From a virus: a stretch of DNA of 34,445 nucleotides. A program made the translations under genes and the position numbers. The notes below the pieces were generated by a model, which saw nothing but the letters and a program-made list of their open reading frames with translations, did no database searches and had not been told where the DNA came from. Position 1 is the stretch's first letter, and each line of letters starts with the position of its first letter. This document shows, in pieces, positions 5,655 to 26,016 of the stretch. The stretch spans positions 1-34,445 of the IMG/VR virus record IMGVR_UViG_3300042452_000909; one strand, 5' to 3'.

Positions 5655-6034
5655 GAGGAGAGGATGTGATACTGCAGAGTTGCCTGCGTCGCGCCTGAAA
5701 CCGTAAACGCCTGTGCCCACACATTCGTCGTCTGCAGCCTGCAGATCACATACTCGCCCGGCAGTAGGCGAAGCAGGGCATCAAAGCTCGCGGTGTTCGT
5801 CGCCTTGGAGACCGTAATGCTCGCAGCGGTCGATAGGTTCCTGAAGAACGCCATACCGCCGCTGGATGTGTCCGTGCCGATCGTGACAGCTTCCGGCGTG
5901 GTTCCGATGATCTGCTGACCGGCCGAACCGGTATCGCTTTCGAGATCCGGCTGTATCGCCGACGGCGAGTATGTGATCTGCAGATTCCCTTTGGAAACCG
6001 TGATCCGGGAGCTGTATGTGATCTCGTTCGCCAT
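5651..6034 (-). CDS. Small beta-rich tail protein, 127 aa
   Basis: The start ATG 6034-6032 overlaps the upstream TAA as TAATG. It is rich in Thr, Ser, Ile and Gly with alternating beta strands (ITVSKGNLQITYS, ASITVSKATNTASF), and the motif LLPGEYVICRL in the third quarter resembles the surface loop of phage beta-sandwich proteins. It has no enzyme motif. It belongs to the distal tail block. Confidence 0.65.
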   Translation of the reverse strand: MANEITYSSRITVSKGNLQITYSPSAIQPDLESDTGSAGQQIIGTTPEAVTIGTDTSSGGMAFFRNLSTAASITVSKATNTASFDALLRLLPGEYVICRLQTTNVWAQAFTVSGATQATLQYHILSS

Positions 6035-8123: not shown

Positions 8124-8346
8124 GCAGCCTCCGCATCTCGCGATCTACGGCGGAGCGTCCGGTATCGCCTCCGCTTTCGGCCATCATCATATCGGACACC
8201 GTTTGGACCACCTCTGCGAAGAGGTCAACGGGCATGTCCAACGGATTGCCGAATCCGGGAGCGTTGCGTGCGACGAATGCAGCGTTGCCGATCCAGTCGA
8301 TCGGCTTCAGGCCGTCTGCTGAACCGGCTCCTGAGGGCGGACGGCA
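8113..8346 (-). CDS. Tail assembly chaperone, -1 frameshift extension (T-like part)
   Basis: Past the stop of the chaperone (8307) the -1 frame stays open to TGA 8115-8113 and encodes about 65 protein-like residues (LKPIDWIGNAAFVARNAPGF, ending in DREMRRLLGN). The segment has no good start codon of its own and ends overlapping the tape-measure start. This is the arrangement of lambda G/GT and of most siphoviruses, where a fraction of ribosomes slip -1 near the end of G. I do not see a canonical XXXYYYZ heptamer in the overlap, so the slip site is unresolved. The right boundary given is approximate. Confidence 0.6.
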   Translation of the reverse strand, partial: CRPPSGAGSADGLKPIDWIGNAAFVARNAPGFGNPLDMPVDLFAEVVQTVSDMMMAESGGDTGRSAVDREMRRLLGN

Positions 8347-8699
8347 TCCGGCGCAGGCTCGAAACCGATGAGAGCCTTGGCGATTTCCACGATGCGATCC
8401 GGCCGCATGCCGCTCATCATCTGATCCGAGTCCCCGCCGGCTCGATGTATCGCCTGCTGGACCATCTCCGTTGCGATGGTGATTCGGAATGCGGCAAGGA
8501 TCAGCATCGCGGCTGAACCCTTACGCTTCGAATGTTCACGCAACTCCATCAGACGGACTTCGGGATTCACGCCGGAAGCGTCGAGGTCAGCCATCAAGAC
8601 CTTCCGCTCTTCCTCGAACGCGAGGTCCGTGAAGTAGAGCATGTCGCGGACGGTCAGCATCGGCACGCGGAAACCGTCTCGAATCTCGATTGCCTTCAC
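8307..8699 (-). CDS. Tail assembly chaperone (G-like), 130 aa
   Basis: It starts at GTG 8699-8697, coupled by a GTGA overlap to the upstream gene. It is a helical protein with an acidic first half (YFTDLAFEEERKVLMADL) and a helical second half (DRIVEIAKALIGFEP), ending in a Pro/Gln-rich tail. Position directly upstream of the tape measure, size, and the open -1 frame beyond its stop all fit the G-type chaperone that coats the tape measure during tail assembly. Confidence 0.7.
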   Translation of the reverse strand: MKAIEIRDGFRVPMLTVRDMLYFTDLAFEEERKVLMADLDASGVNPEVRLMELREHSKRKGSAAMLILAAFRITIATEMVQQAIHRAGGDSDQMMSGMRPDRIVEIAKALIGFEPAPDAVRPQEPVQQTA

Positions 8700-8950
8700 T
8701 TCGTGAGTCTCCCTCTGTTCACAGGATGCATGTCTTCAACGGAATTGAATGCAGCATACCGGCGTTGAAGTTTGCAATCAACAAGCCTGCGCATGCTGTT
8801 GCGCCACCGGACCAGCGTGGCGATCCTGTCCAGAGCCTGCTGTTCGGTGAGGTGCGGGGACAGGCCGATCCTGCTGCTGGTCCCATCGGTGAACCGGAGG
8901 TCCGCGACCCAGTCGTCCGGAGTCAGGACGGTCGTGGGCCATAGCCTCAT
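8696..8950 (-). CDS. Small tail-module protein, 84 aa
   Basis: It starts at ATG 8950-8948 (MRLWPTTVLTPDDWV) with an ATGA overlap with the tail-tube gene and a GTGA overlap with the chaperone. The first half looks beta-stranded (WVADLRFTDGTSSRIGL), and the second half is a basic helix (TLVRWRNSMRRLVDCKLQRR). It lies between tail tube and chaperone. Function unknown. Confidence 0.65.
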   Translation of the reverse strand: MRLWPTTVLTPDDWVADLRFTDGTSSRIGLSPHLTEQQALDRIATLVRWRNSMRRLVDCKLQRRYAAFNSVEDMHPVNRGRLTK

Positions 8951-9348
8951 GACTCGTCCCAAGTCTCCGTCGGGATAGCGCCATCTGAGTTGGCGAAGTT
9001 GAACGCAAGCATCGAGTCACCGGTCTTGGTGACGCTCGCCGCGACATCGGAAATCACAGCGACGAAGGTGTAGAAACAAGCGGTGCTTGCCTTCAGGGTG
9101 ATTGATGCACCATCAGCGTCGGAACTGGCGATGCCGGGCGATGAGTTCGGCTCGTTCCCGATCATAGATCCGCCAGCCGAACCGGAGATGTCCCATATGC
9201 CCAACTTGCGACGACGACCGGTATCTCCGTATCCGGTCACATCAGAAGCGTTCCGCGAGAAGGTCGCGTTCCAAGTCATGAACTGCGCTGCGTGCGCAGT
9301 CGGGAAAGTGATTCCGCCGTCGTTGCCGGTGAGGTAGGTCGTTGGCAT
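8947..9348 (-). CDS. Major tail (tube) protein paralogue B, 133 aa
   Basis: It starts at ATG 9348-9346, 3 bases after the stop of paralogue A. It shares the whole layout of the upstream gene: GNDGGITF near the start, a WNATFSR line near residue 28, GRRRKLGIWDISGSAGG in the middle and the C-terminal signature PTETWDE. The size and beta-rich pattern fit a siphovirus tail tube subunit, expected to form hexameric rings around the tape measure. Having two copies is unusual. One could be the tube and the other a decorated or alternative tube protein. Confidence 0.75.
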   Translation of the reverse strand: MPTTYLTGNDGGITFPTAHAAQFMTWNATFSRNASDVTGYGDTGRRRKLGIWDISGSAGGSMIGNEPNSSPGIASSDADGASITLKASTACFYTFVAVISDVAASVTKTGDSMLAFNFANSDGAIPTETWDES

Positions 9349-9351
9349 GTT

Positions 9352-9780
9352 TCAGGTCGTTTCGTCCCAAGTCTCCGTCGGAGCCGCACCGCCGGAAAGC
9401 TGGAAGTTGAAGGTGATCGCGGCATCCCCTGTCTTTGCGTTGCTCATCGCGATGTCGCTGACGATCGCGTCGAAGTGCAGCGTGCAGACCGTTCCGCCCG
9501 TCGTAACCGTGCCGGAACCGAGCGCATGCAGGTAGACTTTCGCTCCGCTGGTCGCCCACTTAGTCGTGTTGACACCGGGACCGGCAGCATCGGCGATCAT
9601 GAAGCCACCTGCGGATCCGCTCACATCATGCACTCCGAGCCGGCGTCGCCTAGCGGCATCCGAGAATCCGGAGATTTCCGACACGACACGCGAGAAAGTC
9701 GCGTTCCACACATTGAACTGCGCGTTGTGCTGCGTCCCGAAGGACACTCCGCCGTCGTTTCCGATGAGGTAGTTGGGCAT
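9352..9780 (-). CDS. Major tail (tube) protein paralogue A, 142 aa
   Basis: It starts at ATG 9780-9778, directly after the stop of the tail completion gene. It has the same features as paralogue B: GNDGGVSF, WNATFSR, ARRRRLGVHDVSGSAGG, and C-terminal PTETWDE followed by two Thr. It is about 9 residues longer, from a loop around residues 70-95 rich in Gly and Thr. Position between tail completion protein and chaperone is canonical for the tail tube gene. Confidence 0.78.
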   Translation of the reverse strand: MPNYLIGNDGGVSFGTQHNAQFNVWNATFSRVVSEISGFSDAARRRRLGVHDVSGSAGGFMIADAAGPGVNTTKWATSGAKVYLHALGSGTVTTGGTVCTLHFDAIVSDIAMSNAKTGDAAITFNFQLSGGAAPTETWDETT

Positions 9781-9781
9781 T

Positions 9782-10198
9782 TCAGGTGCTCGTGCGTGTT
9801 CCTATGGCTCTGAATCGCGAGGTCGTGCGTATCGCGTCGTCCTCGACTTCCGGAACGCCACGCGATTCCGAACGCAGGACGATACGATCATACCCGGTCG
9901 GATTCAGCTCCCTGTTGTCCAGCAAGACCGCAAGACTTTCGGACGCGGACAGGCCTGCCGTCACTCCGCCAGATGTCTGGTGGAACTGGTCGAACTCGAT
10001 GGTGATCCGTTCACGCGAAACCTTGTTCGTGGCGAACACCGGCTCGATGATGTGGTCCACGACACGGTACACGCATAGCGGCAGCGTCGCGTTCTCAGGT
10101 GCCACATTGAGATACACGCGAGTCCCGAGCGTTTGATACCACGATGTCAACTCCGTGGAAACCAACGCAGAGTTCAAGGATCTCAGGAATTCGTTCAT
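9782..10198 (-). CDS. Tail completion/terminator protein, 138 aa
   Basis: It starts at ATG 10198-10196 behind GAGGAA. N-terminal helix (MNEFLRSLNSALVST), then LGTRVYLNVAPENATLPLCVYRVV, which is the 'vy-...aP.....Pyvvy' line of the gp17-like/DUF3168 family of tail terminators, and a later strand region ERITIEFDQFHQTSG. It follows the HK97 gp10-like gene and precedes the tail tube, the expected order. In this family the protein caps the tail tube and joins it to the head. Confidence 0.7.
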   Translation of the reverse strand: MNEFLRSLNSALVSTELTSWYQTLGTRVYLNVAPENATLPLCVYRVVDHIIEPVFATNKVSRERITIEFDQFHQTSGGVTAGLSASESLAVLLDNRELNPTGYDRIVLRSESRGVPEVEDDAIRTTSRFRAIGTRTST

Positions 10199-10201
10199 GC
10201 T

Positions 10202-10660
10202 TCATTTCCTCAAGATCGCGCTCTGAAGTTCACGGCGAATGTAAGACGCGAACACATCCGTCGCCTTGTCCCGGACGACCTCGACAGCAGGCATGATGTA
10301 TGGCCGCTCCTCTATCTTGACGGACCGGTTCCGGCCTGCGTAGCCGCCATACTCAAGGATCGCCGCATAGGGAACCTTGCTGGCAGACAGGATCCAGCCG
10401 ATCTTCCGGTTCTTGCCGAACACCTTCGGCTGTGCCTGCCATCCGTTTCTGAGTCTGCCGGTCTGGGTGGCCGGAGGCTCGCCGGGACCCGATGATCGTG
10501 CGGGATTCCCCCAGTACCAGATGCCGCTTCCGCCTTGACTGAGATTCCTGCGGATTTCCCGCTGGACCTGCAGGATGACATCCTGAGATCCATTCTTGCA
10601 TCCTTCGACGATTGCGTCGACGATGACTCGCTTGTCGAAACTCCAAGTTGTCTTGCTCAT
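10202..10660 (-). CDS. HK97 gp10-like head-tail/tail completion protein, 152 aa
   Basis: It starts at ATG 10660-10658. The sequence shows the family's landmarks: PGEPPATQTGRLRNGW near residues 59-74, VPYAAILEYGG near 97-107 and RPYIMPAVE near 119-127. It comes between the head closure protein and the tail terminator. The family is needed for joining heads and tails. An ATGA overlap couples it to the gene upstream. Confidence 0.8.
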   Translation of the reverse strand: MSKTTWSFDKRVIVDAIVEGCKNGSQDVILQVQREIRRNLSQGGSGIWYWGNPARSSGPGEPPATQTGRLRNGWQAQPKVFGKNRKIGWILSASKVPYAAILEYGGYAGRNRSVKIEERPYIMPAVEVVRDKATDVFASYIRRELQSAILRK

Positions 10661-11888: not shown

Positions 11889-12998
11889 TCACCTTGCCCA
11901 GTCGGGCTTACCGTGGTTGATGAACTCACTATGGTACTGGTGCCTCGCGGACAGGGTCCGGTCCGGCCAAGACACGACGACCTGCATGTGGCCGATGCGA
12001 ACCCGATTGGCCTGCCACACGCGATAGCCGGAACGCTTCCATTGCTTCCAGAACTGGATGTCGTCGTCCACCCTGCCCTCGCCCCAAGTCCCGTCCGGTG
12101 CCGGCTGCCCGTGAAACCACGGACGAGGGAGGTTCCTGAGCGCATCGGCACGGATCAGAGTCAGGCCGAAGTGTGCGGTCGCCACCTCGATCGCATCGCT
12201 CTCGATCTCTTCCAGCGTGAGGCTCGTTCGCGGATTTCCAGCATCGTCGCTGCAAGTGATCAGCACGGTCTGACGCTCGCGCCCGACCTGCATCGCAGCG
12301 ACCGCATCGAGGTTCCGCTTCTTGGCCAGCCGATAGAGGGACACGATGTCCTCCCGACTGAAGATGCTGTCGTAGTCGATCGTAAGCACCCACTCGATCG
12401 CAGGCTTCGCGATGGCCTCGGTCATCAGGCGAGAAAGACACTGGCCCCAGAACGCTCCCGTGTGCTTCGTGAGATTGATCTTCAGCGGCAGGCACGCTCC
12501 GATCGAGCAGAACATGTTCTCCGTCCACGCAAGTCGTGGCATCGAGATCAGTCCCTCGACATTCTGCAGTTCGGTGATCGGCTCTACCTTGCTGCCGCGC
12601 ATGCCGAGCCACATGTCGTCGGGTCCGCATGCCCACGATCCAATCTCGTCGAGGCCGGATTGCCTCAGCAGTTCCTGAACCTTCCCGCGATTCCAGATGG
12701 ACTTGTGCTCGCCCTGCGTCCCGATCAGGCGGAACTCCACATCGGCGGCAGTTCCGTTGCGATAGGCGTCAACGCAACGGTCGAAGTCAGGCACGGAAAC
12801 AAGCAGCTCACCTCCCACCTTGAGCTTCTTGATCCATTCCTTCATCGCCTCCAGCGCCTGCTGTCCGGTGAACTGCGTGATCTCGTTGCGGACCTCGATC
12901 GAGGCTAGCGTCCCGTCCCGTACATTCGCCAGTTCCGCATGCCCGTTGAGCTTGATCCGACTTTCGGCCTGCTGTTCGTTCGTAATCTCGATTGACAT
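11889..12998 (-). CDS. GT-A glycosyltransferase fused to a truncated methyltransferase-like N-terminus, 369 aa
   Basis: The start is ATG 12998-12996 (MSIEITNEQQAES) behind AGAGGAACAGGG. Residues about 20-130 resemble the second half of a Methyltransf_11-type fold: ALEAMKEWIKKLKVGGELLV, then SVPDFDRCVDAYRNG. The glycine-rich SAM-binding loop is absent, so this part is probably not catalytic. Residues about 150-369 are a family-2-like GT-A domain with the metal-binding DYD at 208-210 (VLTIDYDSIF) and a late VDDDIQFWKQWKRSGYRVW acid motif. Both are typical of nucleotide-sugar transfer. It sits between the putative decoration protein and the connector in the head operon. Substrate could be capsid protein or modified DNA. 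It may also be a moron, that is a transferred gene. Confidence 0.75.
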   Translation of the reverse strand: MSIEITNEQQAESRIKLNGHAELANVRDGTLASIEVRNEITQFTGQQALEAMKEWIKKLKVGGELLVSVPDFDRCVDAYRNGTAADVEFRLIGTQGEHKSIWNRGKVQELLRQSGLDEIGSWACGPDDMWLGMRGSKVEPITELQNVEGLISMPRLAWTENMFCSIGACLPLKINLTKHTGAFWGQCLSRLMTEAIAKPAIEWVLTIDYDSIFSREDIVSLYRLAKKRNLDAVAAMQVGRERQTVLITCSDDAGNPRTSLTLEEIESDAIEVATAHFGLTLIRADALRNLPRPWFHGQPAPDGTWGEGRVDDDIQFWKQWKRSGYRVWQANRVRIGHMQVVVSWPDRTLSARHQYHSEFINHGKPDWAR

Positions 12999-15708: not shown

Positions 15709-18503
15709 TTGTCTGACTCCAGAACCGGAACGAGTGAGCACCGGCAGTTCGGATGCAGCGGAGGACCGGTCACGGCATCGTAGTCGACCACGAGCGTCTT
15801 TCCTTCTGCCGTGACGGAGTCTCCGACCTGCAGGAAATCCTGATCCATCGCTTTGGTCTCACCGGATCGTTCAAGCTGTTCGCAGAACGGGCATGCTTCC
15901 GGTGACGCAAGCCATTTCTTGCCGGTCACGACCTCGCTCTGCTTCCACGCATCGATCTGTCCGCGATTCATCGCTCTGGTTGTCTCGGTCCTAGCGATCC
16001 TGCGAGCGCGACCGGGATCGAATCCGCGAGTCTCAAGCTCGTCGGCCATCTCGTCTATGGTGGCGCCTTCATCCACTAGCTCGGAGAGTACGGTCGCGAC
16101 CTTTACCTGTGTCGTCTTGCCTAACTCATCGACAAGCTCCACCGCACGCGTCCTGCTCCAGTCCGTTGCCGGAGTCTCATCGAAGGAGATGGACCTCGGA
16201 AGTTCACCGCCGACGCTTCGCCGGATGGCATCCTCGACTCCATCCTTGCCGTTGGCGAATCCGATGCCGAGAGATTCTTTCAGGTATGGCGCTACCTTCA
16301 CGCTGACCTGCGTCTCGATGTAGTCCAGCAAGTCGTCTTGAAGAGCCTTCTTCGCCTCCGATAGAAGCATGTCCTCAGGCAATCCGCTCTTCGTGATCGC
16401 CTTCAGGACTGCATCCATCTGCCTGCGATTCAGCCTTCCGATTTCCCGCTCAAGACGGCGGACCACCTTCTCCTCGATGCGATCCCTTGCTTTGGACTTC
16501 GTGAGCATGACGGTCTCATCGAGCAGTTCCGACTGCGTGATGATGTGCTTCTTGCTCTTGCTTTCGGAGCAGCATCCACAGCTCTTCGCAGATTTCTCGC
16601 CGCACTTCTCGTATGCGATCGCGATGGCCTGATCCCGGTCGTAGCCTTCCGCGAGCAGCAGCGAGATCTTCTCCGCGACGCATTCTGCGAGCGCGTCCTT
16701 CGCCTCGATTCCCTTGTCCTCGTCGTCCGCCCGATCCATTCGTGCGGTCACGCGCTCGGACCAGTCCTTGCCCGCATCTCCGCCCCACAGCAGGTGTGCG
16801 ACGAAACCGGCTGACGGATCGCTCGGATCGTCCCATCCCGGACGCTTGTCGGATGCGTGCCGCGAGAAGAACGAATGCATCCGGCGCACGGTCTCTGGCG
16901 ACAGCACCTCGCGGTTCTTCAGTTGTGTCGCACGGGCAACGCCGACCTCCGTCCCGCCACGATTGAACTCCGCTCGCAATCGCAGGCCACGCTCCGCTGC
17001 CTCTGCCATACCTTCCGTCGGCGTGAAGTCGATGCCGGAATATCGCTCCGGCGCTCCCTGCGTCGTGGCCTTACTCTTGACCGGCGGTGGAGGCTCAGGA
17101 ACAGCCTCGGCAGCCGGCTCAGCCACCGGCGGCATCGGTGGTTGCTGCGGCTCAGGCTGCGGTTCAAGGTCCGTCAGGTCGAGCGGAGCCAAGGACTGCC
17201 CGTTCACCATCGGATACTGCGCCTCTTCGATGTCCAACGCGTCGAGTCCTCTCGCCTCGCGGACCTCGTTGATGGTCATGACTCCGGCTGCGACGAGTCC
17301 CGTGTGTTCCTGAAGGTCAAGTTGCCTGTTCGCGGGAACCGGATCGTCGTAGGCAAGGACGGCATCGTTCTCGATGCCGAACATCGGGAGCAGCTTCTGG
17401 TTCAGCGTTTCTTCGTCGAGCCGAAGGAGCGGCAGGATCGTGGACTCGCGCCACTGGGCGAATCCGGTCGTAGCGCTCGCGAGGTTCGGATCGTTCGCCT
17501 TGAGCATCGAGACCGGCACGCCGAACACGGCTGCGATCTCCTCGACGATCTCGTCGCGTCCCGCAAGATCCTTCGGTGCGAACTGCATCGGCTTCAGGTC
17601 GACCTGCCCGGTGAGCGCGATGAATCCGCCCTGCTTCTCCGGTCCCTTCAGCTTCTCGTTGACCGCTCTCTCGAACTCCGCGATCGCATCCTCGCTGGCA
17701 TCCGTGTTCTGAATCGTCGCGAGATAGTCCGGTCTGGCACGGTTCCGTGCCATCGCGATGTCCATCTCGTGGTTCGCGTCGTTCAGGTCTGCCACTCCCC
17801 ACGCTGCCTCGACCTTGCCCATCCCGTAGAACAACGACTCAGGGTTCGGTCGCTTGAAGTGCAGCACCTCATCCGGCGCAATCGACACCTTGGTGTTCGA
17901 ATCCTTGCCGTACTTGTATTCGGCGATGAACTCGGTCTCGCTCGGCACGATTTCCACCCACTGCGGTGGCATCGGCCAGAGTTCCGACGGCACGCCGAGT
18001 TGGTTCTTGATCACATGCAGGTATGCATTGCCGGTCAGTTCCTGCCAGAGCGTCCGAGTCGCCGCTAGGTCGAATCCGTTCATCTGCGGATTCACCTTGC
18101 GCAATAGGTCAAGGACCGGATGCGCTTCCGTGACCTCTTCGAACTCCGCACCGAAGTCGTGCATCTTAGACATCACGGTCCGGCTCGGTGTCCGTTGCCC
18201 GTTGCCGAGCAGATATCCCTTCCGGTCCCTGTTGACCTTTCCCGTACGGAACAACTTGCCTGCTTGCCCGGACCGGACATACAGACGCAGCGGCACGGAA
18301 GAAACGCCGAACGCATTGATGCTGGCAGCAGCGTAGATCCAAGACCGGTAACGCTTGATCGCGGTGACGGCTGCATAGTGCGCCCGCTGATCGGCACCGG
18401 ATCCGCTCAGGATCATGCCGAGCGATGCGCGCAGATACCTCTGCTGCGCATTGGTTGCGTCGGTCTTGGGCTGCTTTATCAGGGACAGTAAGCGTCGGAG
18501 CAT
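15705..18503 (-). CDS. Portal protein fused to MuF-type head morphogenesis domain, 932 aa
   Basis: It starts at ATG 18503-18501, overlapping the terminase stop by one base (TGATG). Residues about 30-430 are an HK97-type portal (VLDLLRKVNPQMNGFDL; PSELWPMPPQWVEIVP; VLHFKRPNPESLFYGMG). Residues about 448-475 are a Pro-rich linker. Residues about 495-580 are a phage head module with RGGTEVGVARATQLKNR, FFSRHASDKR and PSAGFVAHLLWGGDAG that I know from other phages but cannot name. Residues about 600-650 hold a QAIAIAYEKC line and a CGCC cluster. Residues about 780-925 are a MuF domain (IARTETTRAMNRGQ, CPFCEQLERSG, PPLHPNCRC). In most phages portal and MuF are separate proteins. Fusion would put MuF in portal stoichiometry, 12 per head. 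Confidence 0.87.
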   Translation of the reverse strand: MLRRLLSLIKQPKTDATNAQQRYLRASLGMILSGSGADQRAHYAAVTAIKRYRSWIYAAASINAFGVSSVPLRLYVRSGQAGKLFRTGKVNRDRKGYLLGNGQRTPSRTVMSKMHDFGAEFEEVTEAHPVLDLLRKVNPQMNGFDLAATRTLWQELTGNAYLHVIKNQLGVPSELWPMPPQWVEIVPSETEFIAEYKYGKDSNTKVSIAPDEVLHFKRPNPESLFYGMGKVEAAWGVADLNDANHEMDIAMARNRARPDYLATIQNTDASEDAIAEFERAVNEKLKGPEKQGGFIALTGQVDLKPMQFAPKDLAGRDEIVEEIAAVFGVPVSMLKANDPNLASATTGFAQWRESTILPLLRLDEETLNQKLLPMFGIENDAVLAYDDPVPANRQLDLQEHTGLVAAGVMTINEVREARGLDALDIEEAQYPMVNGQSLAPLDLTDLEPQPEPQQPPMPPVAEPAAEAVPEPPPPVKSKATTQGAPERYSGIDFTPTEGMAEAAERGLRLRAEFNRGGTEVGVARATQLKNREVLSPETVRRMHSFFSRHASDKRPGWDDPSDPSAGFVAHLLWGGDAGKDWSERVTARMDRADDEDKGIEAKDALAECVAEKISLLLAEGYDRDQAIAIAYEKCGEKSAKSCGCCSESKSKKHIITQSELLDETVMLTKSKARDRIEEKVVRRLEREIGRLNRRQMDAVLKAITKSGLPEDMLLSEAKKALQDDLLDYIETQVSVKVAPYLKESLGIGFANGKDGVEDAIRRSVGGELPRSISFDETPATDWSRTRAVELVDELGKTTQVKVATVLSELVDEGATIDEMADELETRGFDPGRARRIARTETTRAMNRGQIDAWKQSEVVTGKKWLASPEACPFCEQLERSGETKAMDQDFLQVGDSVTAEGKTLVVDYDAVTGPPLHPNCRCSLVPVLESDK

Positions 18504-19711
18504 CAGATGACTCGAAACTTGAAGGTCGGCTGGCGTACGGATGCACGCCGGACAGCCAACGCCAACGCCATCACGGAGTCATCATAAACTCCGCCAGTCA
18601 CAGTGTATCGGACACCCGTCCGGGTCGATTCCCACTCGAACGCTTCCAGTTCCGTCCGAATCACTCCGTCCGGGAAGCCGACTTCCTTCCGCTGGATCGA
18701 CGCAGCCAATCCCTCCAGCAATTGCTGCCGGCTGACGGCCGTGAACTTGAATCCCTCTATGTTAGATCTGCCTCGCTGCAGATCCTCCACGATCGGGTCG
18801 CCGACGCCGGTCGAGTCGATCAGGGCAGGCACCTTCCCGACCGACTCCGCGACCCGCACGCGTGTGGCCTGCCAGTCCATCCTGAAGCGTTCGAATCGGC
18901 ACACGGAACCGTTCGCGTCGAGTCCGACGATGACGGACCAGTCGGTCGACTTGGCGAGGTCAACGCCGAATGCGACCGGCTCAGCCTGCGACATCGGACG
19001 GATGCACGACCGGATCGCGTCGAGACCGAATGGATTTCCGCCATCGTCATTGGCTTCGACTAGGTACAACTCGCGGAACACATGATCCGGCAACTGCCTT
19101 CGCGCAGAATCGACCTCGTCGGAATGCATGACTCCGCCGTCGACCGCATCCGCAGCGGTCAACTTGTGATACGCCATCTCCGGCTCCGCACCGCTCTCTG
19201 CCGCACGAGCGAGCTTGTAGCACCAGTTCTTCCTGCCTTTCAGATTGCCGATGATCCGACACTTGCCTCTGGTCGCGGTCAGGGTGGAGCGCACTGCATA
19301 CCACGATTCTTCCGGGCAACGCGTCGCCTCGTCGATCACGGCTGCGTTCACATCCTCGCCGAACAGACCGTCCGGATTGTCGGCAGACTTGAACGCGATC
19401 TTGGAACCGTTCGCGAGCGAGATGATCAGCCGGGAATCGTTCCGCTTCCAGATCCGTTGCTGCGGATCCGCGTCCCGCATCATCGTCGCGAGCCTTTCGA
19501 AGCCGACCGTCTTGGTCACTTCGTATGTCGGTGCGATCCACCAGCAGACGGATTCCGGCCTGTTCCACGCGAACTCAAGGATCCACAACAAGCATCCGAG
19601 CGTCTTGCCGCTCTTCGTGCTGGCCTCGATGACGACTATGCGTGCCGCATCGCATATCGCATTGTGCTGCTTGGGATACAGCGGTGGCAGTTCGATCTGC
19701 GCTGCGGTCAC
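18503..19711 (-). CDS. Terminase large subunit, 402 aa
   Basis: It starts at ATG 19711-19709, coupled by ATGA to the small-subunit gene. ATPase: Walker A is ASTKSGKT at 30-37, Walker B is AAVIDEA with D127/E128, and IIGNLKGRKNW at about 153-163 fits the coupling motif. Nuclease of RNase H type: first acids in GVDLAKSTDWS (D251, D257), then ALIDSTGVGD (D299, D305), then VYDDSVMAL (D377/D378). The full set of catalytic residues is present. The protein is short for the family, with a brief N-terminus. It packages DNA through the portal encoded directly downstream. Confidence 0.9.
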   Translation of the reverse strand: MTAAQIELPPLYPKQHNAICDAARIVVIEASTKSGKTLGCLLWILEFAWNRPESVCWWIAPTYEVTKTVGFERLATMMRDADPQQRIWKRNDSRLIISLANGSKIAFKSADNPDGLFGEDVNAAVIDEATRCPEESWYAVRSTLTATRGKCRIIGNLKGRKNWCYKLARAAESGAEPEMAYHKLTAADAVDGGVMHSDEVDSARRQLPDHVFRELYLVEANDDGGNPFGLDAIRSCIRPMSQAEPVAFGVDLAKSTDWSVIVGLDANGSVCRFERFRMDWQATRVRVAESVGKVPALIDSTGVGDPIVEDLQRGRSNIEGFKFTAVSRQQLLEGLAASIQRKEVGFPDGVIRTELEAFEWESTRTGVRYTVTGGVYDDSVMALALAVRRASVRQPTFKFRVI

Positions 19712-20055
19712 TGCCGGACCCCGATGCGGATCGGCAACAACTCGATCCGCTCCGTGGCCTCTCCGCCCTCAAGTCTTTCGATCTTGTCGAGTGTCGCCAA
19801 TGCCGCAATGTTGTCGCGGTCCAGAGCCGCCAGCAATTCCACGGCTCGCAAGCGTTCACGGTCTGTCTTGCCTTCGACGGCGATCCGGCCTGCGATGCGC
19901 GGCGCTATGCGTCTCATCTCGTCGGGAATCGGCCACCGGTTCAGGACCGCTCGCCTGAGCAGTTGCATCGTCTCGCGCGCGTGCCTCGGATCTACCTCCG
20001 GCTGCGTCGTGATCGCCAACTGCTGCGGATCGGGTGTGCTCGCGGCATCTGTCAT
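19708..20055 (-). CDS. Putative terminase small subunit, 115 aa
   Basis: It starts at ATG 20055-20053, overlapping the glycosyltransferase gene by ATGA, and ends with ATGA into the large terminase. It is a helical protein: LLRRAVLNRWPIPDEMRRI, then TDRERLRAVELLAALDRDNI. This RWPIP and later 'aLd.dN' pattern is common in the small proteins encoded directly before large terminases in environmental phages. No clear DNA-binding helix-turn-helix is visible. Its role is inferred from position. Confidence 0.65.
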   Translation of the reverse strand: MTDAASTPDPQQLAITTQPEVDPRHARETMQLLRRAVLNRWPIPDEMRRIAPRIAGRIAVEGKTDRERLRAVELLAALDRDNIAALATLDKIERLEGGEATERIELLPIRIGVRQ

Positions 20056-20993
20056 AAGCGCATCGCCTGCTTGTACTGCAGGCCGATTGTACGAGGCTCG
20101 TGCCGGAGCAGGGAGTTGCGTCCTTCCGCGACGACCAACGCCCTCAGGAACTTGTCCTCCCGCAAGAGCTTGACGGCCGCAGCGATCTGCGTCTCGTCGG
20201 CAGCAACGAGGCAGTTCTTCCCGTGCTGCATGTCGCCGTCCGGGTAGCCGGCGGTCCACTTCGCGTTGATGACCAGCGGAGTACCGGCATCCCACGCTTC
20301 AAGGAACGAGTATTGCGTGCCTCCGCCGTCGTTCGCGATCGCGCTCATGTCTACCACGACCTCCGCAGAAGCGCACAATGCCGCACCCGCACCAGCCTCC
20401 ATCGGGAACCTCTCCGGCTTGAAGTCCGGCCACCGCGACGCGATCTTCAGGAAGATGTATCGCGTGTTCGCCGCACCGAATATGCGGATGTTCGCCCCGA
20501 GGTCGTTCGCCGCGAGGATCAGGTGCGTGTACTTGTCGAAGTCGATCCGCGAGTGTGCGACCGCCTCGTACATGCTTCTACGGCCGGGATTGTCCCGCCG
20601 GTACGGATGCCGGATGAATGTCGCTTTCGGAGCATGCCGCAGCATCGACTCGCGGATCACGATCATGCGGTCCTGCGGGAACCCCGCGAGGTGCTTCTCG
20701 GCGGGATCGTGGACGACGATGTAGGCTCCCCGCTCTACGAGTTGCCTTGCCGCGTCTGCGTGGTCCTTGTCGGCTGCGGCGATCAGAACCGGCCCAGTGG
20801 CCCGGCATAGATCGGGAAGCGCCATTCGCCTTGCACGGAGTCCATGGCCGAACTCGTGCGGCAGGCCTGCCGTCCGTGCGCCGACGACCCGGATGGCCGG
20901 TCCCATACCGACCTCGGTCATCGCGACATGTAGATGCCGGAGGAATGTCGGCCATCCTCCGTACTTGGCTTTAGCGAGATAAGCGATGGTCAT
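20052..20993 (-). CDS. GT-B (GT4-like) glycosyltransferase of the hypermodification island, 313 aa
   Basis: The start is ATG 20993-20991 (MTIAYLAKAKYGGW) behind GAAGGGACCGGGC; the longer frame lacks a good site. N-terminal Rossmann-like half: a GGWPTFLRHL glycine turn early, then TGPVLIAAADKD and YIVVHDPAEKHL. C-terminal half from about 175: IRIFGAANTRYIFL, then CASAEVVVDMSA, and GGGTQYSFLEAWDAGTPLVI with the acidic residue that contacts the nucleotide sugar in GT4 enzymes, then GKNCLVA. Located between the TET/JBP oxygenase and the terminase. The simplest role is to add a sugar to an oxidised base. Sugar donor and acceptor are not shown by sequence. Confidence 0.8.
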   Translation of the reverse strand: MTIAYLAKAKYGGWPTFLRHLHVAMTEVGMGPAIRVVGARTAGLPHEFGHGLRARRMALPDLCRATGPVLIAAADKDHADAARQLVERGAYIVVHDPAEKHLAGFPQDRMIVIRESMLRHAPKATFIRHPYRRDNPGRRSMYEAVAHSRIDFDKYTHLILAANDLGANIRIFGAANTRYIFLKIASRWPDFKPERFPMEAGAGAALCASAEVVVDMSAIANDGGGTQYSFLEAWDAGTPLVINAKWTAGYPDGDMQHGKNCLVAADETQIAAAVKLLREDKFLRALVVAEGRNSLLRHEPRTIGLQYKQAMRL

Positions 20994-21021
20994 GCCCGGT
21001 CCCTTCAGGACCGGAGCCGAT

Positions 21022-21855
21022 TCAGGTCTGGACGACATCCTTCTTGGCCCTCTTCGTTTCCACATTCGTTCGCTGCGCACGCAGTCTGGCTATCTCGTCG
21101 GTGATCGCGTCGCAGTTCCACATCTGCTGCAGGCTGTAGTACACGACCGTGAACCGGTGCGAATCCTCGGCGAGCTTCTCGATCGGCGTGACTCCGTGGA
21201 CAAGAGCCTGCCCGTCGAACAACAAGAGCGAGCGGTCGCTGATCTCGAACATCAGGTCAAGCTCCGGCACGCAGAGGAATCCGCCGCGCACCTTGTGCTT
21301 GATCCCGAGCATAGCGGAACAGACGCCACGGAAGTTGCCGGAGTCGAAGTGGTATCGCAGCGGATTGTTGTGGTTCACGATGCCGCTCGTGAACATCGTC
21401 TCCGCGATTCGGTACTCGTCCCGCACATGCTCCTTCGCGAGACTGTCGTGCCGGTCGGACAGTTCCGGGAACTCCCGGCGATAGTGCCTCGCGACGACGA
21501 CTGCACCGCCGGCTACGGTCGCATGCTCATGAGGCTGGTCAGCGGCAAAGGTCGCGGCACGACACGGATGCCCGCGAAGCTCATTCCGAGGCGCATAGCC
21601 GAAGATACGGGAGGTCGTCACGAGTCCGTTCGTCCTCGTGCTCTTCGCGTAGTGGATTCGCGGCAGCACCTCGGCCATCCGCGAAAGCTCGGGATCGTCA
21701 AGTCCGGTGATGTAGACGATCGCGGTCTGCCCGTTCACCACGACACGAACCGTGTCCTTGACGAACACGGAGCAGTCGGATTCCTTCGCCGAACGGTTCT
21801 TGTAGTCGTTCAGGTCGATGTCACGAAGTGACGCGTGCAGAAGTCGCATAGCCAT
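21022..21855 (-). CDS. TET/JBP-family 2-oxoglutarate/Fe(II) DNA dioxygenase, 277 aa
   Basis: It starts at ATG 21855-21853 behind GGAGACCA (a second ATG lies two codons on). It overlaps the ParB-like gene by 35 bases. The double-stranded beta-helix is clear: the iron site HxD is H169-F-D171 in LRYHFDSGNFRGVCSAMLG, the distal His is H220 in VHGVTPI, and R234 in HRFTVVYYS would bind 2-oxoglutarate. Upstream, TSRIFGYAPRNELRG and the GGFLCVPELD and LLLFDGQALVHG lines fit the TET/JBP family (Pfam Tet_JBP). The family oxidises the 5-methyl group of pyrimidines in DNA. Phage members are known to work on 5-methylcytosine, with later glycosylation. The sequence does not decide between 5mC and thymine. 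Confidence 0.87.
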   Translation of the reverse strand: MAMRLLHASLRDIDLNDYKNRSAKESDCSVFVKDTVRVVVNGQTAIVYITGLDDPELSRMAEVLPRIHYAKSTRTNGLVTTSRIFGYAPRNELRGHPCRAATFAADQPHEHATVAGGAVVVARHYRREFPELSDRHDSLAKEHVRDEYRIAETMFTSGIVNHNNPLRYHFDSGNFRGVCSAMLGIKHKVRGGFLCVPELDLMFEISDRSLLLFDGQALVHGVTPIEKLAEDSHRFTVVYYSLQQMWNCDAITDEIARLRAQRTNVETKRAKKDVVQT

Positions 21856-22450
21856 TGGTCTCCAGCAGATGGACCAAGACCTCGGTGTTGTTGCTCAGTC
21901 CGTTGACTTCAGCATAGCGACCCATCGCGTCGACCACCCGCTCGTACTCTTCCACCCCGAACACGAGGACGATCTGCCGGATCACGCTCGCGGCATACTT
22001 GTCCGCGTCGTGCATGCTCTGGTTCTCGTCCTGCTCGATCGTGCCGACAGGATCTTCCGCGAGCATCGCCTCGATTTCCGAGAGGTCATATCCGGTCGCG
22101 GCAGCGAGAGCCTCGTCCTCGATCTTGAGAGCTTCGAGCGTTTCGGCAAGCATCTGATCGTTCCACTCGGCGAGGTCCGCCGTGCGGTTGTCCGCGATGG
22201 CGTATGCCGTCGCCTCGCTTCCCTTCAGCGTGGTGCGAACGATCGCGACCTGCTTCCAGCCGAGTTCGCGTGCCGCATCGAGCGTACCGTTGCCGGCCCG
22301 AACGATGCCGTCCGCGTCAATGACGATCGGCTTCTGCTGGCCGAAACGGGCCAGACTTCCCTTGATCGCGTTCAGGTTCTTGATGCCGTGTCTCCGCAGG
22401 TTCGCGGGATCCGGCAGTATCGAGTCGATGTCAACCAGTTCCGTCTTCAT
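21821..22450 (-). CDS. ParB-like nuclease-fold protein, 209 aa
   Basis: It starts at ATG 22450-22448, overlapping the methyltransferase stop as ATGA. N-terminal ParB/sulfiredoxin fold: VDIDSILPDPANLRRH, SLARFGQQKPIVIDADG, and RAGNGTLDAARELGW, in which the usual His or Glu of the 'aGh/gE' box is Asn. Residues 75-110 hold the conserved-looking TAYAIADNRTADLAEWN. A middle helical stretch and an acidic linker (about 135-150) lead to a C-terminal helical part. ParB-like proteins of this kind are often found beside DNA-modifying enzymes in phages and may guide them to DNA. Nicking activity cannot be judged. Confidence 0.8.
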   Translation of the reverse strand: MKTELVDIDSILPDPANLRRHGIKNLNAIKGSLARFGQQKPIVIDADGIVRAGNGTLDAARELGWKQVAIVRTTLKGSEATAYAIADNRTADLAEWNDQMLAETLEALKIEDEALAAATGYDLSEIEAMLAEDPVGTIEQDENQSMHDADKYAASVIRQIVLVFGVEEYERVVDAMGRYAEVNGLSNNTEVLVHLLETNGYATSARVTS

Positions 22451-22965
22451 TTGTGTGCCTCCAAGTTCAGGGATACCGGGACTCCGAAGAACTGGATTTC
22501 CGAACAGTCTTGGAACATCCCGAACGATGCGACTCTCTTGATCTCGAAGAATCCGGCCTGCTCAAGCAGCTGCTCAAGCGTTTCCTGCACGAACCCGGCT
22601 CTGTGAATGTCGTGCTCGTCGACCTGTCCGCCGTAGATCAACTTGAGCAGGTGATGAACTCCGACGGTCGAGAGGTACGGAGAGTCAAGCATCCTCGCAA
22701 CGGTTCCGATATCCGGCACCGCGACGCATAGCTTTCCGTTCGGCTTGAGGACGCGATGCCATTCCGCAAGAGCCTTTACGACACCTTGCCACGGCAGGTG
22801 TTCAAGCACATGCGATGCGTACACCTCTGCGACGCTGTTATCCGCGACCCACGAAAGGTTCGCGGCATCCGCGACGAAATCGACATGCGGTCCCTGCTGG
22901 ATGTTGACGATCTGCCATCCCTGCCGGACCTGCTTGCCGCCGATGTGAAACCTGACCTCTTCCAT
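22447..22965 (-). CDS. Class I SAM-dependent methyltransferase (Methyltransf_11-like), 172 aa
   Basis: It starts at ATG 22965-22963 and has no ribosome site (see the promoter entry). Residues about 18-110 contain the half of the fold after motif I: VDFVADAANLSWV, SVAEVYASHVLEHLPWQGVV and WHRVLKPNGKLCVAVPD. The SHVLEH line marks the Methyltransf_11 family, which acts on small molecules, sugars or lipids. The DNA-methylase motifs (NPPY-type or PCQ) are absent. The N-terminus is short, with only a WQIVNIQ strand before the acidic D of motif II. Leading the ParB-TET-glycosyltransferase operon, it may methylate the added sugar. It could instead modify a precursor. Confidence 0.75.
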   Translation of the reverse strand: MEEVRFHIGGKQVRQGWQIVNIQQGPHVDFVADAANLSWVADNSVAEVYASHVLEHLPWQGVVKALAEWHRVLKPNGKLCVAVPDIGTVARMLDSPYLSTVGVHHLLKLIYGGQVDEHDIHRAGFVQETLEQLLEQAGFFEIKRVASFGMFQDCSEIQFFGVPVSLNLEAHK

Positions 22966-22972
22966 ACAACGG

Positions 22973-23002
22973 ATGCTACACCGTTTGCCTACCCGTTGCC
23001 AA
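22973..23002 (-). promoter_or_regulatory. Candidate promoter of the hypermodification island
   Basis: On the minus strand TTGGCA (23002-22997) and TAGCAT (22978-22973) are separated by 18 bases, a fair sigma-70-type pair. The -10 ends 7 bases before the methyltransferase ATG, so transcription would begin at or next to the start codon and give a leaderless message. The gene has no visible Shine-Dalgarno sequence, which supports this reading. Confidence 0.5.
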
Positions 23003-23459
23003 GTATGGCCTGAACCCTGCCCAGCGAGAGGATTCCGATGGAGACGAGGTAGTTCATTCCGGCGATTGTCCTCGGATCATCGCTGACGACTTCCTGTGCC
23101 GCAAGAGCGGAGCGATAGAAGGATTGCACGACGGCATCCGCCTCGCGTGCAGTTTCGATCGAGGCGAGTTCCGCATCCGTGAATCTCGACAGGAATTCAA
23201 GCGCGGTCCAATTCTTCCGCAGTTCGTCGGCCGTCAGCGGACGCACGAGCCACGCTCGGGTCACGCGATCGGACGCGACCACGAAGTACGGCTCGACCGC
23301 CTGCGTTTCGATGTCGTGCGGAGGTACCTGATCGGTAACCACCCTGCGATACGCGTCGGCTTTCGGATTGCCGGTCGCCACCCAAGACGCATGCATCGCC
23401 GGATCGATATCGACGATCCTTGCGACAGCACCTGCTTCAACTATCGCGTACTCGGCCAT
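22989..23459 (-). CDS. Tail-fibre-associated small protein, 156 aa
   Basis: It starts at ATG 23459-23457, overlapping the LamG gene stop by one base. N-terminal part: AEYAIVEAGAVARIVDID and a beta-rich region to about residue 75. C-terminal part: ELRKNWTALEFLSRFTDAEL, then IETAREADAVVQSFYRSAL and GMNYLVSIGILS, a helical module frequently encoded after tail fibre genes in many phages. It could be a fibre chaperone or fibre-bound subunit. Confidence 0.65.
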   Translation of the reverse strand: MAEYAIVEAGAVARIVDIDPAMHASWVATGNPKADAYRRVVTDQVPPHDIETQAVEPYFVVASDRVTRAWLVRPLTADELRKNWTALEFLSRFTDAELASIETAREADAVVQSFYRSALAAQEVVSDDPRTIAGMNYLVSIGILSLGRVQAILGNG

Positions 23460-24115
23460 CAGCCGTATCTCCTCGGATGCACAAACACGGTCGGGCCACC
23501 GGCCGAGGTCATGTCTCCGTTGCAGGTGTCTTGTGCCTCACGAACCAACGGCACATATGAGATCAGGGAATCTGGCCTCACACTAGTCGGCTTAGCACCT
23601 TGCGACAAAGACTTGATTTCATCGGCACTTAGCGCGACATCCCACACTCCGACTTCAGCCAGTTTGCCGTTGTAGAAGTTTGAGAGCGAGTAGGTTCCAC
23701 CTGAGCCTGTGGCAAGTATCAGGTTGTCGAAGTTCGAGGCTCCACGGGTGCCACCTGCGTCAGTTCCCGCAACTCCGTCGATGTATGCCAGACGGCTCGT
23801 AGTCGAGAAGAACACCGCACAGGTGTGGTACCAAGTGTTCGCTGCCATAGCACTGCCAGAGGAAGAACTAGAGATTCCGTTGTTCACATTGGCACGGGCG
23901 ACTACGTTACCGGTGCTGTTGTGTCCTAAGTGAACTGAACTGTTGCCGACAGTGCCGGAGGATCCGCCGATCGGCTCTGACGCAAGTTGCACGAATACGC
24001 GGTTGAGATTCACTGCGTCCGATCTCGCCCAGCACGCCAGCGTGAGAGGAACGCTGACCGTATATGGTTGAGCCCGTTCCATCGAGTCGTTGCTGCCATC
24101 GAAGTCGTAAGCCAT
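23459..24115 (-). CDS. LamG/concanavalin-A-like tail lectin, 218 aa
   Basis: The start is ATG 24115-24113 (MAYDFDGSNDSMER), overlapping the fibre stop as TAATG. The sequence follows the LamG/concanavalin plan: 'yDFDGsND' at the start, PLTLACWARSD near residue 22, NTWYHTCAVFFSTTSRLAYI near 90 and the final GKLAEVGVWDVALSADEIKSL line, which is the signature end of laminin-G-like jelly rolls in phages. The end (DTCNGDMTSAGGPTVF) is short. It is likely to bind host-surface glycans together with the fibre. Confidence 0.82.
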   Translation of the reverse strand: MAYDFDGSNDSMERAQPYTVSVPLTLACWARSDAVNLNRVFVQLASEPIGGSSGTVGNSSVHLGHNSTGNVVARANVNNGISSSSSGSAMAANTWYHTCAVFFSTTSRLAYIDGVAGTDAGGTRGASNFDNLILATGSGGTYSLSNFYNGKLAEVGVWDVALSADEIKSLSQGAKPTSVRPDSLISYVPLVREAQDTCNGDMTSAGGPTVFVHPRRYG

Positions 24116-26016
24116 TATGTTGCGTCCCTGATTTCGACCGCGACGAGACAAGCATCATTCGTCAGAGCGTCACTGGCTGCGGTCGCGTCACGCGAGATGC
24201 GGATCCGGTAGAAGTCGCCCGCAACGAGAGAGTCAAGCGCAGCGGTTCCGGTCAGCGTGATCTCCGTGATGACCGGCACGCCGGCGGTCCCGCTGGCTGC
24301 AGCCGTCGCAGTCACGGTGTTCGAGAATGCATCGGCGTCGAGATCGGTCGTCGTGTCGATGCGCTGGAACTGCACACCCCACACGACTGCGTCGGTATTC
24401 GTGACGGTGTCCGCTGTCCAAGCCAGACGAACCTTCAGTCCGCTCGTGGTCACGGCACCTTCCGGGAGCAGGCCACAGAACACGGCCGCCTCGACTGCCG
24501 TCGGATCGAAGTCCAGTACCGGCACACCGCTCGAACGAGTGTCGAATGTCGCGTAGTCGCTGGTCTGCGGCATGTTGTCCAGTGGCGTAAACGACGCGTA
24601 TGTCTTGGTGCCTCCGCCGCTTACTCCGGGCGGAGCAGCCCAAGTCATGTCTCCTCTCAGGAATGTCGAGGTGCTGGCCGAGCCGGATGTGCCGACCTCC
24701 GTCGCGGCAATCGTTCCGATCGACACAGCACCTCCGGCAGATGTCTGCTTGAGAAACTGAGCCGTCCCTCCGGTCGCTGAGATGTCCGCCGCAAGACCGC
24801 CGCGCGCGAGAGCCAGCGTCCCGGAGTTGATGTCCGATGCGGCATGATTGTGAGTCGGGAGGTCGGTGGTGGCGAGCACCGCGACACTGACTGCCGCACC
24901 GGCAGCGGTCTGCTTGAGAACACGACCGGCTCCTCCCGTAGTTGAGATGTCTGCGGCGAGACCGCCACGCGCGAGTGCGAGCGTGCCGCTGACGATGTCG
25001 CTTGCAGGATGCTGGTGCAGCAGGTCTGCCGCTCCGACCTCGCTGGCCGCCAGCGCGTTTACCGTGATGGCAGCGCCTGCCGCTGTCTGCCGAAGCACGC
25101 TGAACGATCCGCCGGTGGTAGACAGGTTCGCCGCAAGACCACCAATCGACAATGCGAGCGTGCCGCTGGTGATGTTGCTGGCCACATGATTGTGGGTGGG
25201 CAGGTCCGTGGCCGCGATGCCTGCGATCGAGACCGCTGCGCCTGCTGATGTCTGCCTGAGGAATCCCGGTCCTGTCGTGCTGATGTCCGCAGCCAGTCCG
25301 CCGCGAGCCAGAGCGAGCGTGCCAGCTTGCACATCACTGGCGTTATGCGTGTGGCTGCCGAGCGCGATGGTGTAGTTCCCGTTCGCTCCGGCATCGGTGG
25401 CGACAAGACCGGTTCCGATCGTGAGAACTCGTTCGCTGTCGAGACTGGCATTCGTGCCGAGGACGAGGTACGACGCGTTTGTCGGCGCTCCGCCACCGCC
25501 TCCGGTCGTCGACCAAGTCAGGTCGCCACGGAGATAGGTGTCGGTTCCGGGCGTACCGCTCGTGCCGAGTTCGGTGGCCGCGATCGCGCTGACCGATACA
25601 GCTCCGCCTGCGGATGTCTGCTTGAGGAACTGTCTCGTGCCGCCTGTCGTCGAGATGTCAGCCGCGAGACCGCCGCGAGCGAGAGCCAAAGTCCCGCTCG
25701 TGATGTTGCTGGCTGCGTGAGTATGCGTCGCGAGCGCGATGGTCAGGTCGCCGCCGGCACCGGCATCCGTGGATGCCAGTCCGGTGCCGATGACGAGAAC
25801 GCGCTCGGACGACAGTCCGGTGTGCGTACCGAGAACGAGGTAGGACGCGTTCGTCGGCGCTCCGCCGCTTCCGCCGCCCGAAACCTCGATGCCTCCGGTC
25901 GATGTGCCATCGCCGATGTAGAGTTTGCTGGTGTCCGTGATCCACAACGGTTCGCCTGCCGCCGGAGTGACGGCGGAGCGTTGCGCATCTGTGCCACGGC
26001 GGAACTGGAGCGGCAT
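24115..26016 (-). CDS. Tail fibre protein with five internal repeats, 633 aa
   Basis: It starts at ATG 26016-26014. Residues 1-42 (MPLQFRRGTDAQRSAV, then EPLWITDTSKLYIGDGTSTGG) match the N-terminal cap of many phage fibres and major tropism determinants. Five units of about 55 residues follow at about 98, 222, 275, 334 and 388, each with H-x-H, SGTLALARGGLAADIS, LKQTSAGGAVS and IAATEL. Two APTNASYLVLGT blocks (53, 177) and two LRGD-TW lines (162, 453) mark larger duplications. From about 470 a non-repetitive C-terminal beta domain begins (TYASFTPLDNMPQTSDYATF, later GDFYRIRISRDATA). It is expected to trimerise and reach the receptor. Confidence 0.85.
   Translation of the reverse strand: MPLQFRRGTDAQRSAVTPAAGEPLWITDTSKLYIGDGTSTGGIEVSGGGSGGAPTNASYLVLGTHTGLSSERVLVIGTGLASTDAGAGGDLTIALATHTHAASNITSGTLALARGGLAADISTTGGTRQFLKQTSAGGAVSVSAIAATELGTSGTPGTDTYLRGDLTWSTTGGGGGAPTNASYLVLGTNASLDSERVLTIGTGLVATDAGANGNYTIALGSHTHNASDVQAGTLALARGGLAADISTTGPGFLRQTSAGAAVSIAGIAATDLPTHNHVASNITSGTLALSIGGLAANLSTTGGSFSVLRQTAAGAAITVNALAASEVGAADLLHQHPASDIVSGTLALARGGLAADISTTGGAGRVLKQTAAGAAVSVAVLATTDLPTHNHAASDINSGTLALARGGLAADISATGGTAQFLKQTSAGGAVSIGTIAATEVGTSGSASTSTFLRGDMTWAAPPGVSGGGTKTYASFTPLDNMPQTSDYATFDTRSSGVPVLDFDPTAVEAAVFCGLLPEGAVTTSGLKVRLAWTADTVTNTDAVVWGVQFQRIDTTTDLDADAFSNTVTATAAASGTAGVPVITEITLTGTAALDSLVAGDFYRIRISRDATAASDALTNDACLVAVEIRDAT
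24694..25725 (-). repeat. Coding repeats of the tail fibre
   Basis: Five diverged units, about 160 bases each on average, encode the SGTLALARGGLAADIS module. Spacing is uneven: the gap between the first two units contains a second copy of the APTNASYLVLGT block. The units are similar enough for recombination to add or drop copies, which would change fibre length. Confidence 0.7.

Follow-up and report, generated by a model that had tools for sequence, protein, structure and literature searches.

The locus considered here raises the question of which base of a viral genome is modified, and by what, when a TET/JBP-type oxygenase is encoded between a ParB-like gene and a glycosyltransferase gene directly ahead of the terminase genes. 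The window, that is, the whole stretch of DNA that was analysed, is the IMG/VR record IMGVR_UViG_3300042452_000909, a linear contig of 34,445 nt that may be incomplete. The original prediction described a DNA-hypermodification cassette of four genes linked by short overlaps up to the terminase, and both the four open reading frames, all on the minus strand (Table 1), and their linkage were confirmed when the junctions were read from the sequence. The methyltransferase and ParB genes share the letters ATGA (4 bp) and the ParB and TET genes overlap by 35 bp, while the TET and glycosyltransferase genes have an overlap of 0 if the latter starts at the ATG at 20993, where its alignment to relatives begins, or of 17 bp if it starts at the alternative ATG at 21038, the reading frame being open to 21080. 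The glycosyltransferase and small terminase subunit genes again share ATGA (4 bp), with the start codon of the latter overlapping the stop codon of the former, and the two terminase genes share GTGA (4 bp). The putative small subunit resembles, by eye, open reading frames in two related loci (L002:1828-2232 and L004:11450-11848) and gave no match in Pfam and PHROG searches; a nucleotide search of positions 18000-24000 of the window against isolate phages likewise gave no match.

Table 1. Genes of the cassette and of the adjoining terminase in the window
Feature	Position	Strand	Evidence
Small SAM-dependent methyltransferase, glycan/small-molecule type	22447..22965	-	Methyltransf_11 E 6.3e-9 (Pfam)
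ParB/Srx-like protein	21821..22450	-	PHROG 620 E 2e-34
TET/JBP 2OG-Fe(II) oxygenase, predicted thymine hydroxylase	21022..21855	-	Tet_JBP E 2.8e-12 (Pfam)
GT-B (GT4-like) glycosyltransferase, predicted acceptor 5-hydroxymethyluracil in DNA	20052..20993	-	Glyco_trans_1_2 E 2.1e-5
Putative terminase small subunit	19708..20055	-	Position and by-eye resemblance to L002/L004 ORFs
Terminase large subunit	18503..19711	-	Terminase_6N E 6.9e-8 (Pfam); PHROG 2 E 2.1e-30

The oxygenase is a member of the TET/JBP family, as was proposed from its sequence. It matches the Tet_JBP profile with 46.6 bits (cut-off 34.9), and the residues predicted to bind iron (H169, D171 and H220) and 2-oxoglutarate (R234) lie at exactly those positions and show no variation across an alignment of 40 relatives. 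The AF2 model is confident (pLDDT 92.9), and its best matches in the PDB are TET2 (Z 20.5), NgTet1 (19.8), CMD1 (19.4) and CcTet (17.5), with the best non-TET fold family at about 15.5; a sequence search of the PDB with the oxygenase profile gave only marginal matches. Assignment to another 2-oxoglutarate-dependent family was rejected, AlkB and FTO being clearly lower than TET in the comparison with the PDB. The family is labelled queuine tRNA-ribosyltransferase in PHROG 6059, which is a naming error. Three residues past the aspartate of the HxD motif the oxygenase has Asn174, where the protein of Nonlabens phage P12024L has Asp; since TET2 also carries Asn at the equivalent position, an argument about the substrate from the base pocket is suggestive and not decisive, and it was set aside.

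The substrate had originally been taken to be 5-methylcytosine, a proposal that sits poorly with the gene content of the phages concerned. A C5-cytosine methyltransferase (PF00145) was found neither in the window nor in 31 of 33 viral records nor in any of ten TET-bearing isolate genomes, in a search that was positive in 10 of 14 control genomes and that covered contigs which may be incomplete. Within the window's own TET clade (SH-aLRT 99, 27 rows, in trees that are quick searches with SH-aLRT support alone and long branches on some basal rows), locus L163 has the order ParB–TET–ADDT-type protein–kinase. Its TET is 49% identical to that of the window and 75-77% identical to the TETs of the GT-B-linked locus L143 and the TAGT-linked locus L133; its kinase matches Ploopntkinase3 above the cut-off, and its ADDT-type protein, for which no Pfam match was found, belongs to PHROG 3271, as does the actinophage ADDT. 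In this clade, then, a TET occurs together with a 5-hmdU-DNA kinase and an ADDT-type protein, both of which work on 5-hydroxymethyluracil derived from thymine. This gene association, together with the absence of a C5-methyltransferase, suggests that the substrate of the oxygenase is probably thymine and not 5-methylcytosine. A 5-hmdU-DNA kinase gene (PF18751) was not found in the window itself; the in-clade locus L163 has one. A thymidylate-synthase homologue (PF00303) was absent from 30 records, 29 of them with a TET close by; the hydroxymethyl group therefore apparently comes from TET, and synthesis at the nucleotide-pool level by such a homologue was rejected for these records.

The TET might nevertheless oxidize 5-methylcytosine, with the glycosyltransferase acting on 5-hydroxymethylcytosine as in the TET/glycosyltransferase phage systems of the literature. 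Phage TET systems with paired 5-methylcytosine methyltransferases are known, the substrate of TET proteins may shift within one family, the TET-family PDB matches all either have structures determined with 5mC- or 6mA-type DNA or take their names from it, two related records, those of L045 and L046, do have a PF00145 match, and the host may supply the 5-methylcytosine. We regard this as unlikely in view of the lack of C5-methyltransferase genes in the window and in most genomes searched and of in-clade tailoring that points to 5-hydroxymethyluracil; moreover, L045 itself has ADDT and kinase genes beside its TET.

The predicted GT-B, GT4-like nature of the glycosyltransferase was borne out by the Pfam search, in which Glyco_trans_1_2 (at the cut-off) and Glyco_trans_1_4 were the only matches, and by its AF2 model (pLDDT 93.5), which matches GT4 enzymes with Z of about 24 and T4 α-glucosyltransferase (AGT) with Z 22.5. 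A sequence search of the PDB with its profile gave no match, it does not match the TAGT profile (PF20691), and its family has neither a PHROG nor an isolate match. A C-terminal donor-site stretch, DGGG.QY.FLEA.DA, is near-invariant; the acceptor and the sugar donor are not readable from the fold, and we infer both. When loci were retrieved by a glycosyltransferase search alone, TET was adjacent in 18 of 20; the two exceptions are L114, which is truncated close to the contig edge, and L104, in which the glycosyltransferase adjoins a gene of the thymidylate-synthase family, which includes hydroxymethylases. No TET was found in the L104 record by phmmer or by a PF12851 search, the latter being silent in control genomes too.

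The position after TET is a freely exchanged module, which is occupied in relatives by the GT-B enzyme, TAGT, an FkbM methyltransferase or the kinase/ADDT pair, with at least 36 changes of the tailoring gene on the TET tree. Between L002/L003 (GT-B) and L004 (TAGT) the flanking DNA is 87-89% identical on both sides and the glycosyltransferase gene is wholly different, a clean single-gene swap between closely related phages. The kinase family is misnamed in databases as terminase small subunit (PHROG 800) or adenylate kinase.

The association of ParB with TET and the adjacency of the terminase, both part of the original prediction, hold in the window, where ParB lies directly upstream of TET and the terminase downstream, and in relatives. 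Among IMG/VR loci that extend far enough for the comparison, ParB lies upstream of TET in 60 of 61 and the large terminase is downstream in 52 of 56, with several terminase families involved. The ParB-like protein, in which the motifs PxNxR, G(N/H)G and DN(R/K) are conserved, is the proposed DNA-binding partner of the oxygenase. Because layout and gene order recur in distant phages, the arrangement is not due to chance; the order ParB–TET–tailoring gene–terminase is a conserved and partly published layout, and the coupling to the terminase, which had been thought distinctive, was described earlier in an actinophage with 4-bp overlaps (PMC9302106). The same linkage would fit a sparse, site-specific mark for regulation or packaging that ParB directs to the neighbourhood of the packaging site, in place of genome-wide protection. 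This appears improbable, since the frequent changes of decoration fit nuclease evasion better than a fixed signal and since Arthrobacter phage Klevey has no terminase annotated within 6 kb of its TET.

A methyl cap had been proposed to come from the methyltransferase that opens the operon. The viral scan gave no relatives of this enzyme, and its best phage relative (in MW202573) adjoins a GT2-type gene close to the coat protein gene. Because the other TET loci examined are all without a homologue, it was rejected as a member of the pathway and is probably a passenger outside the DNA-modification core. That the glycosyltransferase too modifies a capsid protein, a host glycan or another target beside a coincidental TET is very improbable, given its association with TET in a search that did not use TET and its one-for-one exchange with the TET-associated TAGT, even though GT4-type folds serve mostly small molecules, lipids and glycans and a second methyltransferase-like ORF lies near the capsid gene of the window; for the methyltransferase the argument does stand.

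Comparable systems are known. The genome of Rhodococcus phage Tonitrus begins with genes for ParB, a TET-like protein, aGPT-Pplase2 and a 5-hmU kinase, a set that the authors of its description interpret as thymidine hypermodification (PMC11955845), and in Gordonia phage CaiB a similar set precedes the terminase (PMC9302106). In these and the operons of Mycobacterium phages Serendipitous and Prince, the order from ParB-like through TET/JBP and tailoring genes to terminase, with short overlaps, is as in the window, whereas tailoring is mainly by ADDT/pyrophosphorylase and 5-hmdU-DNA kinase (some with TAGT or PIG-L) in place of a single GT-B enzyme, and the TETs are about 35% identical to that of the window. 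The small phage P12024L (L092) also has a glycosyltransferase gene directly after TET/JBP, but this is a TAGT followed by an N6/N4-type DNA methylase, no ParB was recognised alongside, the terminase is further away and the TETs are about 24% identical. The trypanosome base J pathway (JBP1/2 and JGT) couples a TET/JBP hydroxylase to glycosylation, and the window, in which both enzyme classes are present and linked, is predicted from gene association to give a glycosyl-hydroxymethyluracil too; the window system is viral and has a ParB partner. T4 AGT, solved with HMU-containing DNA, has the GT-B fold in common with the window enzyme at about 9% identity, other GT4 enzymes matching slightly better; T4 makes its own hydroxymethyl base at the nucleotide level.

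In conclusion, the combination of TET/JBP, GT-B and linked ParB supports DNA hypermodification, and we consider it reasonably probable that the cassette carries out post-replicative hypermodification of thymine, with an exchangeable GT-B slot and the methyltransferase as a passenger. The ParB-like protein would bring the oxygenase to phage DNA, where it would convert thymine to 5-hydroxymethyluracil with Fe(II) and 2-oxoglutarate; the GT-B enzyme would then place a sugar, perhaps glucose from UDP-glucose, on the hydroxymethyl group, and the base-J-like product may protect the DNA from host nucleases ahead of packaging. The downstream enzyme would be swappable for the unrelated TAGT, the FkbM methyltransferase or the 5-hmdU kinase with an amino-acid:DNA transferase. 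Evenly balanced is the broader proposal that small phages combine in-situ thymine oxidation with a TET-dedicated GT-B family to make glycosylated 5-hydroxymethyluracil as a viral counterpart to base J, and that swaps of the tailoring gene in a fixed slot evade modification-dependent host nucleases. Any claim to priority for this cassette is made with caution, and the work also exposes database naming errors (PHROG 6059 and PHROG 800). The exchangeable slot represents a natural panel of tailoring enzymes, all expected to act on one common intermediate, which would help in the discovery of DNA glycosyltransferases and in tests of the ways in which phages escape modification-dependent restriction.

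The linear IMG/VR record of 34,445 bases carries four ORFs that run into the terminase genes, as the original prediction had claimed, and the large terminase subunit is followed by portal, protease and capsid genes. Four bases are shared at the methyltransferase/ParB (ATGA), glycosyltransferase/small terminase (ATGA) and small/large terminase (GTGA) junctions, and the ParB-like and oxygenase ORFs overlap by 35 bp. The oxygenase and glycosyltransferase genes do not overlap if the latter starts at ATG 20993, and overlap by 17 bp if it starts at ATG 21038.

Features of the window discussed in the text
Feature	Position	Strand	Remark
Methyltransferase	22965-22447	minus	First of four ORFs
ParB-like protein	22450-21821	minus	Second ORF
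TET/JBP oxygenase (TET)	21855-21022	minus	Third ORF
Glycosyltransferase (GT-B)	20993-20052	minus	Fourth ORF; frame open to 21080
Putative terminase small subunit	20055-19708	minus	Directly after GT-B
Terminase large subunit	19711-18503	minus	Clear assignment
ORF downstream of capsid gene	11889-12998	minus	Degenerate methyltransferase-like N-terminal part
Long repetitive ORF	24115-26016	minus	Probably tail fibre, with an N-terminal domain of the Major tropism determinant (PF18454)

The oxygenase matches Pfam Tet_JBP above the cut-off (E 2.8e-12), its residues H169, D171, H220 and R234 are invariant across 40 relatives, and the best solved-structure matches of its AlphaFold2 model (pLDDT 92.9) are TET2, NgTet1, CMD1 and CcTet (Z 17-20.5), ahead of FTO/AlkB (Z 15.5 and below); these results place it in the TET/JBP family, as proposed, rather than in another 2OG family. 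PHROG 6059, to which this gene corresponds, comprises TET/JBP oxygenases misleadingly named queuine tRNA-ribosyltransferase. The glycosyltransferase model (pLDDT 93.5) has a GT-B fold resembling GT4 enzymes (Z about 24), with T4 alpha-glucosyltransferase, the structure of which was solved with HMU-containing DNA, behind them at Z 22.5. The ParB-like protein keeps the PxNxR, G(N/H)G and DN(R/K) motifs.

The gene order is conserved. IMG/VR scans gave 80 loci with the TET family, labelled from phmmer seeds and counted with near-duplicates and possibly incomplete contigs. ParB lies upstream of TET in 60 of the 61 loci with at least 700 upstream bases (34/35 once near-identical TETs are removed), and a large terminase, from one of several families, lies within about 4.5 kb downstream in 52 of the 56 with enough sequence (24/28 after the same removal). 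A second scan of deeper branches gave ParB in 54/64 and a recognised terminase in 32/63, with a limited set of terminase seeds. Isolated actinophages share the order, and in one locus (L130) a single stretch holds a kinase gene alongside three ParB-like and two TET genes. The predicted coupling to the terminase is thus real and recurs in relatives, but is not new, as the same 4-bp overlaps ahead of the terminase have been published for CaiB (PMC9302106).

The position between TET and terminase, the tailoring slot, is occupied by GT-B, by the unrelated glycosyltransferase TAGT (PF20691), by an FkbM methyltransferase (PF05050), by an unnamed 291-aa protein, or by an amino-acid:DNA transferase (ADDT; PF18724) with a 5-hmdU-DNA kinase (PF18751), sometimes accompanied by an FAD oxidoreductase. 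On TET trees from quick searches with SH-aLRT support only, the tailoring type switches at least 13 times (57 rows) and at least 36 times (106 rows). In the cleanest exchange, the GT-B gene of L002/L003 is replaced by TAGT in L004 (L002:1-5000 and L004:9900-14600): the DNA on both sides (1.9 kb upstream, 3.1 kb downstream) is 87-89% identical, and the glycosyltransferase genes do not align. A second swap separates L067 (TAGT) from L076 (GT-B), with TETs 77% identical. The 291-aa family, which has no Pfam match (L019:8810-9685; relatives in L021, L027, in duplicate, L030 and L035), is a candidate new tailoring enzyme. In L014, a window relative (TerL 51% identical), ParB-TET is followed directly by terminase genes without a recognised tailoring gene (8001-10352), and this phage may carry a bare hydroxymethyl base.

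The original prediction had 5-methylcytosine as the oxygenase substrate. No C5-methyltransferase (PF00145) was found in the window, a contig that may be incomplete, in 31 of the 33 viral records searched or in ten isolate genomes with TET; the search was validated by matches in 10 of 14 control genomes. The commonest isolate cassette, with kinase and ADDT/pyrophosphorylase, has been interpreted as thymidine hypermodification (PMC11955845), and 5hmdU in DNA is phosphorylated by 5hmdU DNA kinase and then modified further (PMC6449724). The window's own TET clade (SH-aLRT 99) includes L163, a ParB-ParB-TET-ADDT-type-kinase locus, the TET of which is 49% identical to that of the window and 75-77% identical to those of L143 (GT-B-linked) and L133 (TAGT-linked). 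Its kinase matches PF18751 above the cut-off, and its ADDT-type protein is linked to the family via PHROG 3271 only. Elsewhere, PHROG 800 (L005:3088-3654), a Ploopntkinase3 5-hmdU kinase, is misleadingly named terminase small subunit or adenylate kinase. The missing C5-methyltransferase, the thymidine-type isolate cassettes and the kinase/ADDT-type tailoring within the clade argue for thymine rather than 5-methylcytosine; since this tailoring falls inside the clade, parsimony suggests hmU as the single intermediate common to all tailoring types.

A methyl cap, also envisaged originally, is not supported in the window, although relatives do have FkbM methyltransferases in the slot. The operon-head methyltransferase (METHYLTRANSFERASE) was not found near TET at any other locus examined; a phage relative (35% identical) in MW202573 is a separate gene that adjoins one of GT2 type, not far from the gene for the coat protein, and the window protein resembles the N-terminal part of the ORF near the window capsid gene (31%, E 6e-10). 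On visual inspection, the remainder of that ORF resembles a GT-A glycosyltransferase, with no Pfam match, and virion protein glycosylation is possible.

GT-B is associated with TET: a viral scan with the glycosyltransferase alone gave 20 loci, with TET adjoining in 18. L114 starts near a contig edge, with the order TAGT-GT-TerL. No TET was recognised in L104, where, in the stretch 4980-6952, the GT-B relative overlaps a gene of the thymidylate synthase family (PF00303, E 4.8e-24). This PF00303 gene has an unusual motif and adjoins a radical SAM gene and a PolA gene. PF00303 was not found in 30 TET-bearing records. As the thymidylate-synthase family includes makers of hydroxymethyl-dUMP or -dCMP, the hydroxymethyl base in L104 may be made at the nucleotide level, and the glycosyltransferase may track the hydroxymethyl group, whichever enzyme is its source.

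In conclusion, phage cassettes that combine TET/JBP genes with those for ParB, tailoring enzymes and terminase are already known in kind; much of this theme is reportedly covered by Iyer and colleagues in their computational papers and by a 2021 study of phage TET/GT systems. As far as the literature examined shows, the new elements are the GT-B version, without a match among 50,697 isolate phage records or in PHROG, the one-for-one glycosyltransferase swaps, the evidence suggesting hmU production by the window TET clade, and the predicted base-J-like product, unreported in phages as of 2019 (PMC6449724). In the proposed mechanism, ParB would bring the oxygenase to DNA, where thymine would be converted to hmU and a sugar added onto it; the modification would occur late, ahead of packaging, and would shield the DNA from nucleases.
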